Source of the DNA: Candidatus Schekmanbacteria bacterium
Lineage (GTDB): Bacteria; Schekmanbacteria; GWA2-38-11; J061
Length of the DNA stretch: 64,000 nt
Assembly: GCA_016219965.1 (NCBI GenBank)
Contig: JACRJM010000003.1
Span: forward strand, 593,902 to 657,901
Direction: 5' to 3'
The notes under the pieces were generated by a model. The model was not told the origin of the DNA. It did not search any database and was given only the letters and a program-made list of their open reading frames with translations. The translations under genes and the position numbers were made by a program. This document shows positions 22,666 through 64,000 of the stretch, piece by piece (positions within the stretch are counted from its first letter, which is position 1; each line of letters opens with the position of its first letter).

Positions 22666-22681
22666 TGGCATAGCATTTGCA
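22666..22681 (+). promoter_or_regulatory. Sigma-54 promoter for the TPR protein-FlrB-FlrC unit
   Basis: TGGCATAGCATTTGCA matches the RpoN -24/-12 consensus with exact spacing. The predicted start is near 22692, 12 nt before the ATG at 22704 and 27 nt before the in-frame ATG at 22719. The 242-nt gap upstream (22462-22703) holds no gene that I can support. Confidence 0.8.
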
Positions 22682-53615: not shown

Positions 53616-53631
53616 TGGCACGTTATTTGCA
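53616..53631 (+). promoter_or_regulatory. Sigma-54 promoter (perfect consensus) for the flgF operon
   Basis: TGGCACGTTATTTGCA, a full match to TGGCACGNNNNTTGCA. Predicted start near 53642, 19 nt before the flgF ATG at 53661, which has GGAGG in front. Confidence 0.88.
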
Positions 53632-62379: not shown

Positions 62380-62616
62380 GTGCTTATTATAACTCGTAAA
62401 GTTGGAGAAATAATTTCAATCGGTGATAGCATAGAAGTTAAGATTCTCGATATTAAGGGACGTCAAGTGAGGATTGGGATAGGCGCCCCAAATAATGTGC
62501 AAATATATAGAAAGGAAATTTATTTAAAAATACTTGAGGAAAATAAAAAAGCTGCAAATATTTTACCTGAGCATTTACATGAGATAAACTTAATCTGGGA
62601 TAATAAAAAAGACTAA
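62380..62616 (+). CDS. csrA: Carbon storage regulator CsrA
   Basis: 78 residues, GTG start. An RNA-binding dimer that blocks or stabilises translation by binding GGA in hairpin loops. MLIITRKVGEIISIGDSIEVKILDIKGRQVRIGIGAPNNVQIYRKEIYLKI has the RNA-contacting strand beta1 (LIITRK) and the strand beta5 (VQIYRKEI), with an Arg at position 44. Its neighbours flgL and fliW, and the fliC leader at 63753-63890, fit the flagellin-directed CsrA/FliW system of Bacillus and Campylobacter. AGGGATGG before the start is a possible self-binding site. Confidence 0.95.
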   Translation: MLIITRKVGEIISIGDSIEVKILDIKGRQVRIGIGAPNNVQIYRKEIYLKILEENKKAANILPEHLHEINLIWDNKKD

Positions 62617-62638: not shown

Positions 62639-63070
62639 ATGATATTTGAAAGTAAGAATTTTGGAACATTGAATATTGAAGACAAAAATATTGTTTTGTT
62701 TGTTGATGGCTTAATAGGTTTTTGCGAACTTAAAAAATTTATTATATTAACACCGCAAGAAGATACTCCTTTTCGTTGGCTTCAATCATTGGATAATCCT
62801 GAAATTGTTTTTGCAATTATAAACCCCTTATTATTTTTTCCTGACTATAAAATAAAAATAACTAAAGCAGATATAGATCTTATTGAAGCCAAAACTCTTG
62901 AGGATATTCAGATATACGCTATAGTAACAATTCCTGATAATTTTTCTAAATTGACAGCAAATCTACTTGGTCCAATTATAATTAATGCCAATAAATGTAA
63001 AGCTAAACAAATAGTTGTTGATAATTCTTCATATAGTACAAAACATCTTTTGCTTTCAGATTGCAGATAA
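62639..63070 (+). CDS. fliW: Flagellar assembly factor FliW (CsrA antagonist)
   Basis: 143 residues. Binds flagellin, and in its free form binds CsrA to release fliC translation. The family mark reads IVLFVDGLIGFCELKKFIILTPQEDTPFRWLQSLDNPEIVFAIINPLLFFPDYK, followed by TIPDNFSKLTANLLGPIIINANKCKAKQIVVDNSSYSTKH. It directly follows csrA. The code is very AT-rich. Usual length. Confidence 0.96.
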   Translation: MIFESKNFGTLNIEDKNIVLFVDGLIGFCELKKFIILTPQEDTPFRWLQSLDNPEIVFAIINPLLFFPDYKIKITKADIDLIEAKTLEDIQIYAIVTIPDNFSKLTANLLGPIIINANKCKAKQIVVDNSSYSTKHLLLSDCR

Positions 63071-63096: not shown

Positions 63097-63717
63097 ATGT
63101 CTGAACAAATAAAAAAATATATATATAATGCTAATTTAGAACAAAATTCTAAATCTGATAACAGAAAATTTTTTAGAATAAATACTATTTTAAAAATTAA
63201 ATATCTATTAATAGATAATAACTATGAATCTTTGTCATTTGTCAGAAACAATAAGTTATTTGAAAAAAATTGTGATTTTCCAATAACCTCGTTAGAAGAA
63301 AATGAGAAATATGGAGCTAAAGTTGACATTTTAAGTATCCTTGTCAAATTGGATAGTAAATTAAATTTTATTATAAATGCATTAAATCTTAAAGGTTCAG
63401 AAAATATTCTTCCAGGTAATCCTACAGAAGTTACTATAAGTGGTTCCGGTTTATCTTTTTGTAGTTACGATAATTTTAAAAAAAACGATATATTGAAAAT
63501 TGATATTGAGTTACCGATATTCCCATTTAGTCTTATTACGGTTACTGGTAAGGTAGTTAATACTATTAGACAAAGCGATGGAAAAAATAAGATTTCAATT
63601 AGGTATATAAATCTCCCAGATTTTATAGCTGACAAAATAATTCAATATACCCTTTCATGTCAAAGAGAAATGATCAGATCTTTTTCTGATACTAAAAGTA
63701 ATAGAAAAAAAAAATAG
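63097..63717 (+). CDS. PilZ-domain protein (putative c-di-GMP-binding)
   Basis: 206 residues. N-terminal DNRKFFRINTILKIKYLLI is an RxxxR-like opening region, reduced to a KFFRIN form. The central part is helical (KVDILSILVKLDSKLNFIINALNLKG). The C-terminal barrel has TEVTISGSGLSFCSYDNFKKNDILKIDIELPIFPFSLITVTGKVV, with an (N/T)ISxxG-like motif (TISGSG) in place of (D/N)xSxxG. It may bind c-di-GMP or be a degenerate form. Proteins of this build regulate motility near flagellar operons. It lies between fliW and fliC. The reading frame ends 3 nt before the sigma-28 promoter. Confidence 0.75.
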   Translation: MSEQIKKYIYNANLEQNSKSDNRKFFRINTILKIKYLLIDNNYESLSFVRNNKLFEKNCDFPITSLEENEKYGAKVDILSILVKLDSKLNFIINALNLKGSENILPGNPTEVTISGSGLSFCSYDNFKKNDILKIDIELPIFPFSLITVTGKVVNTIRQSDGKNKISIRYINLPDFIADKIIQYTLSCQREMIRSFSDTKSNRKKK

Positions 63718-63719
63718 TT

Positions 63720-63746
63720 TAAAGAGTATAAAATCGCATCCGACAA
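63720..63746 (+). promoter_or_regulatory. Sigma-28 (FliA) promoter of fliC
   Basis: TAAA (63720-63723), 15-nt spacer, TCCGACAA (63739-63746), compared with the consensus TAAA-N15-GCCGATAA: the -35 box is full and the -10 box matches 6 of 8 bases. Predicted start about 63753, giving a leader of about 138 nt. Confidence 0.75.
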
Positions 63747-63824
63747 ATAAATTGGTTAAAAACGGGAAGGAGGTGAAATCAGGTCTTTGTTGGATTGGTT
63801 TTTGAAGGATTATATTAATTGGGC

Positions 63825-63848
63825 GATTAAAGTATGGAAGCTTTAATC
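63825..63848 (+). promoter_or_regulatory. Hairpin with GGA in the loop in the fliC leader: candidate CsrA site 1
   Basis: Perfect 8-bp stem GATTAAAG/CTTTAATC (63825-63832 and 63841-63848) with loop TATGGAAG, so ATGGA is exposed as CsrA prefers. It lies 42 nt before the fliC start codon. Other GGA copies in the leader occur near 63792 and 63807, and at the ribosome site. Confidence 0.55.
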
Positions 63849-63876
63849 CCAGCTATTAACAAATAGCGAAACTTTC

Positions 63877-63885
63877 AAGGAGGAA
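63877..63885 (+). promoter_or_regulatory. fliC ribosome site, candidate CsrA site 2
   Basis: CAAGGAGGA precedes the fliC ATG by 5-6 nt and contains two GGA copies. CsrA bound here would block ribosome entry, as in the Bacillus hag leader, where an upstream hairpin site and a Shine-Dalgarno site are bound together. Confidence 0.5.
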
Positions 63886-63890
63886 TTAGC

Positions 63891-64000
63891 ATGGCATTAC
63901 GTATTAACACGAACATAGAATCAATCAATGCACAACGCAACCTTACTACATCTACCTCAGCATTAAACAAATCTCTTGAAAAATTGTCATCTGGTTTGAG
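63891..64000 (+). CDS. fliC: Flagellin FliC, 3'-truncated by the window edge
   Basis: The first 36 codons are visible. The N terminus ALRINTNIESINAQRNLTTS, then TSALNKSLEKLSSGL, is the D0/D1 helix signature of flagellin. AAGGAGGAATTAGC precedes the ATG. It is transcribed from the sigma-28 promoter at 63720 and is the expected target of CsrA/FliW control. The rest of the gene, and probably fliD and fliS, lie beyond the window. Confidence 0.93.
   Translation, partial: MALRINTNIESINAQRNLTTSTSALNKSLEKLSSGL

Follow-up and report, generated by a model that had tools for sequence, protein, structure and literature searches.

A probable CsrA/FliW-type switch with a candidate spacer hairpin and an orphan Shine-Dalgarno box in a flagellin leader from the phylum Schekmanbacteria

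The closest described counterparts of the flagellin leader analyzed here are found in Campylobacter jejuni and Bacillus subtilis. C. jejuni is a diderm whose middle flagellar genes depend on RpoN and whose late flagellar genes depend on FliA, according to two reports (PMC4894983, PMC11187230). The leader of its flaA gene carries two GGA-containing stem-loops to which CsrA binds; FliW relieves this control, and 18 nt is quoted as the optimal site spacing for one CsrA dimer (PMC4894983). The hag leader of B. subtilis also has two CsrA sites, one of them over the Shine-Dalgarno (SD) sequence, and the adjacent csrA and fliW genes provide the repressor and its antagonist (PMC6529632, PMC7652899). 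Another relevant element is the STAB-SD of Bacillus, an SD sequence that has no start codon of its own and sits in the 5′ leader ahead of an abundant product (Agaisse and Lereclus 1996, as cited in PMC3997798).

We analyzed a window of 64,000 nucleotides (the whole stretch of DNA presented above) from a Candidatus Schekmanbacteria bacterium. From 63718 to 64000, the order of elements from 5′ to 3′ is a sigma-28-type promoter, a 5′ box, two hairpins (HP1 and HP2), the SD and the start of fliC. These features and the two upstream regulatory genes are as follows.

62380 to 62616, forward strand: csrA, GTG start, 78 amino acids (Pfam PF02599, 77.8 bits)
62639 to 63070, forward strand: fliW, encoding the CsrA antagonist (Pfam PF02623, 131.9 bits)
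63720 to 63746, forward strand: sigma-28-type fliC promoter, TAAAGAGT-N11-TCCGACAA, with a start predicted near 63753
63767 to 63776, forward strand: 5′ box AAGGAGGTGA, an orphan full-length Shine-Dalgarno sequence
63825 to 63848, forward strand: HP1, putative high-affinity CsrA hairpin with the hexaloop AUGGAA (GGA at 63836-63838)
63852 to 63867, forward strand: HP2, putative spacer hairpin GCTATT-AACA-AATAGC, which lacks GGA and has an identical stem in four of four leaders
63877 to 63885, forward strand: SD AAGGAGGAA with GGA at 63879-63881 and 63882-63884, the ribosome site and putative second CsrA site
63891 to 64000, forward strand: first 36 codons of fliC, encoding the flagellin N-terminus MALRINTNIESINAQRNL; the contig ends there

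We consider it probable (roughly 0.83) that this leader is a CsrA/FliW switch of the hag/flaA kind, in a variant that has a spacer hairpin and a separate 5′ ribosome-binding element. For this reading we infer CsrA binding. The arrangement resembles C. jejuni flaA in that an upstream GGA hairpin is combined with a GGA at the ribosome site, the target would be a sigma-28-type flagellin gene with FliW as the antagonist, the host is a diderm with RpoN-type middle genes, and the structure is backed by compensatory changes (PMC4894983). In contrast, the flaA leader is 45 nt long, its GGA motifs both lie in hairpin loops and are separated by 21 nt, and fliW does not adjoin csrA in C. jejuni (PMC4894983). 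The leader described here is about 138 nt long, its SD GGA lies in no conserved hairpin, a gap of 41-44 nt is filled by HP2, and there is an additional SD box near the 5′ end. With hag, which we compared by description, the locus shares two putative CsrA sites including one over the SD, the adjacency of csrA and fliW, and presumed relief by FliW (PMC6529632, PMC7652899); unlike this organism, B. subtilis is a monoderm and lacks such a sigma-54 tier.

A first-pass annotation of the window had proposed a translational switch with the layout of the hag leader. Its two GGA sites are present, but it overlooked HP2 and the orphan SD box. The proposed CsrA/FliW switch itself has good comparative support, as detailed below, although it is neither novel nor simply of the usual layout. 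Novelty had been implied by placing such a switch on top of a diderm, sigma-54-controlled cascade. However, C. jejuni is already documented as a diderm that combines RpoN and FliA with a CsrA/FliW switch (PMC4894983, PMC11187230), so this combination is not new.

Both regulatory genes are genuine by Pfam and adjacent, and they lie upstream of the fliC start at distances of about 1.3 kb (csrA) and about 0.8 kb (fliW). The csrA gene gives the single match in the whole genome and is the sole copy. Residues 1-62 of CsrA align with structure chain 1t3o_A and residues 2-70 with 5dmb_D, a CsrA chain whose structure entry contains FliW too, and these alignments show that R44 and N55 are conserved. Residues 5-139 of FliW match the FliW chain 5dmb_A (E value of 3.4e-29). 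A PilZ-domain gene (63097-63717; Pfam) lies between fliW and fliC. The PilZ protein is retained with 35% identity in the related genome G001 (L033 4919-5458, minus strand), where the order fliW-PilZ-fliC is kept and fliC thus lies downstream of both genes. This protein is a possible c-di-GMP receptor and hints that flagellin control may be connected with c-di-GMP.

Flagellin is carried by just two genomes of the phylum, namely the window genome (G000) and G001, which belongs to the same family and another genus. In G000, fliC is present three times, once each on contigs C3 (which carries the window), C8 and C6, and our comparison set therefore consists of four leaders: the three G000 paralogues and that of G001. 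The promoter, 5′ box, HP1, HP2 and SD are retained in all four, and the stretch from the box to HP1 has diverged. Contigs C3 and C8 stop at the identical base of fliC, and two more contigs, C6 and C17, are likewise interrupted within fliC (break loci: window 63891-64000, L003 1501-1610, L036 6965-7495 and L034 2-406). The assembly has collapsed at least three near-identical flagellin genes, and for this reason the body of the window fliC is invisible. Given that the identical block spans HP1 into the coding sequence and that C3 and C8 share their break point, the HP1-HP2-SD identity among the three paralogues could be attributed to recent duplication or gene conversion and not to function. This explanation is scarcely credible, as G001 retains all elements despite belonging to another genus and does so with compensatory changes, and the promoter and 5′ box have been kept although the sequence around them has diverged.

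The leader is predicted to be 138 nt long, from the predicted start near 63753 to the ATG start codon of fliC at 63891, which agrees with the earlier estimate of about 138 nt. The promoter, which can also be written TAAA-N15-TCCGACAA (63720-63746), scores 20.0 compared to a shuffled 95th percentile of 17.5 and is kept in the three paralogues and G001. It is sigma-28-type and not sigma-54. Elsewhere in the window, a perfect sigma-54 match at 53616 (forward strand) lies just before a flagellar rod gene, and near-matches occur on the same strand at 22666, 27641 and 38359; three of these four motifs directly precede flagellar genes. The diderm and sigma-54 context described previously is borne out by FlgH, FlgI, two sigma-54 activators, a FliA-like sigma factor and the site at 53616.

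HP1 is formed by GATTAAAG (63825-63832) and CTTTAATC (63841-63848) with TATGGAAG between them, which pair without mismatch over 8 bp. In the RNAfold prediction, a closing U-G pair brings HP1 to 9 bp and leaves the hexaloop AUGGAA, and the stem is prolonged beyond a bulged C by GG at 63822-63823 with CC at 63849-63850. The coordinates first given for the 8-bp hairpin and the two SD GGA copies were right. Two checks that had been suggested at that stage, folding of the leader and stem covariation in relatives, also came out in favor of the proposal: HP1 and HP2 form in all four leaders (RNAfold), two HP1 pairs in G001 are fully compensatory, and the loop GGA is retained in four of four. In the alignment, the changed pairs differ on both sides, from G-C to A-U and from A-U to G-C. 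All HP1 cells are paired (100%), compared to 28-45% in slid-strand controls. The shuffle control (27/500) is weak with four related sequences, and with only two flagellin genomes in the phylum the covariation rests on few events. For these reasons, we regard it as support and not as proof.

The HP1 loop reads ANGGA (AUGGA or AAGGA) upstream of the flagellin SD in every one of the four leaders. The SD AAGGAGGAA is likewise unchanged among them, and the second GGA overlaps the SD. When the 138-nt leader was subjected to dinucleotide shuffling, a GGA-loop hairpin of equal or greater strength arose in 60 of 20,000 shuffles. A covariance model of HP1-HP2-SD was used to search the genome and matched only the three fliC leaders (100-101 bits), with the next match at 19 bits; this search revealed no CsrA regulon with the same architecture elsewhere in the genome.

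To place the leader in a broader setting, we surveyed 71 other genomes, which contributed 80 flagellin leaders, in addition to the four leaders of this phylum. Hairpins were counted if they had at least 5 bp and a GGA in the loop and lay upstream of the SD, and expected counts were obtained from shuffles. The counts ignore kinship, nearly every genome represents a different family, and the set lacking FliW is small (n = 11). A GGA-loop hairpin precedes the flagellin SD in 34 of 62 genomes with FliW versus 5.7 expected, and in 2 of 11 genomes lacking FliW (G174 and G272) versus 1.0 expected. Each of these two genomes is at most 91% complete, has no detected CsrA and has a FliW-carrying relative in the same family, and the absence of FliW is therefore probably an assembly gap. 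GGA is the most enriched loop triplet of all (36 versus 7.0 expected). Among the leaders scored from genomes with FliW, 20 of 27 have a GGA-GGA spacing of 21-28 nt, in keeping with the 21 nt of C. jejuni flaA and the 18-nt optimum quoted for one CsrA dimer (PMC4894983). This link between FliW and GGA hairpins, together with the spacing and the match to C. jejuni, makes the window leader a member of a widespread and known kind.

These observations also bear on whether HP1 and HP2 might be a protein-free structural switch or attenuator, acting by SD sequestration or termination independently of CsrA. In the minimum free energy structure of the window copy, part of the SD does pair with an upstream U-rich stretch. 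However, that pairing is missing in C8 and G001 and is different in C6, and we rejected SD sequestration by folding on the grounds that it is not conserved among the four leaders. Neither hairpin is followed by a U-run, and an Rfam search of the leader region matched no relevant family. Moreover, the loop GGA is what is conserved in this phylum and enriched in other FliW genomes. An attenuator is thus very improbable.

The CsrA/FliW reading leaves HP2 to be accounted for. HP2 has no GGA and no U-run, which excludes it both as a CsrA site and as a terminator. Bridging by one CsrA dimer would call for a GGA-GGA spacing near 18-28 nt. In the phylum leaders the GGA-GGA gap is 41-44 nt, and it becomes 26-29 nt when HP2, which is 15-17 nt long, is looped out. 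Hardly any shuffled version of the linker from HP1 to the SD folds as well as the real one (P = 0 to 0.047). The HP2 stem is invariant in four of four leaders, and since it never varies, its pairing has no covariation support. In the survey, 21 of 22 short linkers are unstructured, and in several other long-gap lineages (G248, G094 and G027/G174) the linker forms hairpins whose stability exceeds that of most shuffles. An effective spacing of 20-32 nt was found in 7 of 12 long-linker leaders versus 5.1 in shuffles, which is not clearly above expectation, and we therefore rejected a general rule that HP2-like hairpins restore spacing. Given this count, we put the odds that HP2 itself acts as a spacer between CsrA sites at about even. 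Loci L060, L068 and L100 also have a long gap between HP1 and the SD with a strong GGA-free hairpin, and these may be independent spacer hairpins.

The remaining element is the 5′ box, whose core AAGGAGGTG (63767-63775) lies approximately 15-20 nt past a sigma-28 start that is predicted and not mapped. The sequence AAGGAGGTG is the full complement of the 16S rRNA tail. The box is conserved within otherwise diverged sequence in the four phylum leaders, and no start codon is conserved behind it among them. The motif GGAGGTG occurs upstream of the real SD in 13 of 62 genomes with FliW versus 0.81 expected, and in 2 of 11 genomes lacking FliW (G030 and G179) versus 0.11 expected. It is found at +10 to +23 of good sigma-28 matches in the unrelated genomes G144, G115, G141, G261, G139 and G030. 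A sigma-28 motif together with the box is found nowhere in G000 except at the three copies of fliC, and fliC is likewise its sole location in G001. An orphan GGAGGTG near the predicted 5′ end is also present at L067, L065, L078, L094, L112, L114, L047 and L093, and the flagellin genomes bearing the box differ as to the presence of FliW, of RNase J and, in the case of G030, of CsrA.

One could read the box as the SD of a short upstream open reading frame, such that ribosome transit through a 19-codon TTG frame (63787-63846) melts HP1. The window copy does have this frame, LLDWFLKDYINWAIKVWKL, but its TTG is 13 nt past GGAGG and thus too far away. No ATG, GTG or TTG stands within reach of the box in C8 or C6, and in G001 the corresponding stretch lacks start codons altogether. 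We rejected the leader-peptide reading because the start codon is not conserved, and we judge it highly unlikely. The frame through HP1 is chance-like and is missing from the other three leaders.

The box could instead be a third CsrA site that aids repression or protects the 5′ end. It includes AAGGA, which is a CsrA-like core, and the E. coli flhDC mRNA is shielded from RNase E by CsrA near its 5′ end, as stated in PMC3997798. Nevertheless, conservation goes beyond AnGGA and takes in AGGAGGTG, which is complementary to the whole anti-SD, and no stem presents the box across all four folds. The box is also present in G030 and G179, both of which lack FliW and detectable CsrA (G179 is just 81% complete). 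Because G030 carries the box although CsrA and FliW are undetectable in that genome, we consider a CsrA site unlikely, if by no means far-fetched.

By analogy with STAB-SD elements, the 5′ box may be a separate orphan SD that binds 30S subunits and protects an abundant message, an assignment we make tentatively and at slightly less than even odds. STAB-SD elements are found mainly in Bacillus and give 5′ protection against RNase J (PMC3997798), whereas the window genome has no RNase J over the curated cut-off. The same is true of G001, G144, G139 and G030. RNase J was thus rejected as the partner of the box, and the textbook STAB-SD route is not directly applicable. We therefore say only that the box would work like a STAB-SD and do not class it as one. 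More speculatively, an orphan SD near the sigma-28 start might recruit 30S subunits without translation and independently of CsrA in many unrelated flagellin messages, and in this phylum it might stand beside a CsrA switch whose two sites a dedicated spacer hairpin keeps at the proper distance.

Taken as a CsrA/FliW switch, the locus would operate as follows. The message would begin at the sigma-28-type promoter. One CsrA dimer would place one face on the ANGGA hexaloop of HP1 and the other on the SD GGA, and the ribosome would be blocked. By folding within the 41-44 nt gap, HP2 could give an effective distance of approximately 26-29 nt, near the 21-28 nt of most other FliW genomes. As in B. 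subtilis and C. jejuni, export of flagellin would free FliW, which would bind CsrA and allow translation to resume. In what is the weakest step, the 5′ box may bind 30S subunits and shield the message.

This analysis extends the probable range of the CsrA/FliW flagellin switch to a phylum with few sampled genomes. The orphan SD box may add a further level of control over flagellin mRNA, of which we found no report among the open papers searched. The survey suggests a simple rule, whereby a GGA-loop hairpin located 21-28 nt before the SD GGA predicts which bacteria use the switch. Finally, the candidate spacer hairpin would offer a clean test case for how CsrA dimers gauge the distance from site to site.
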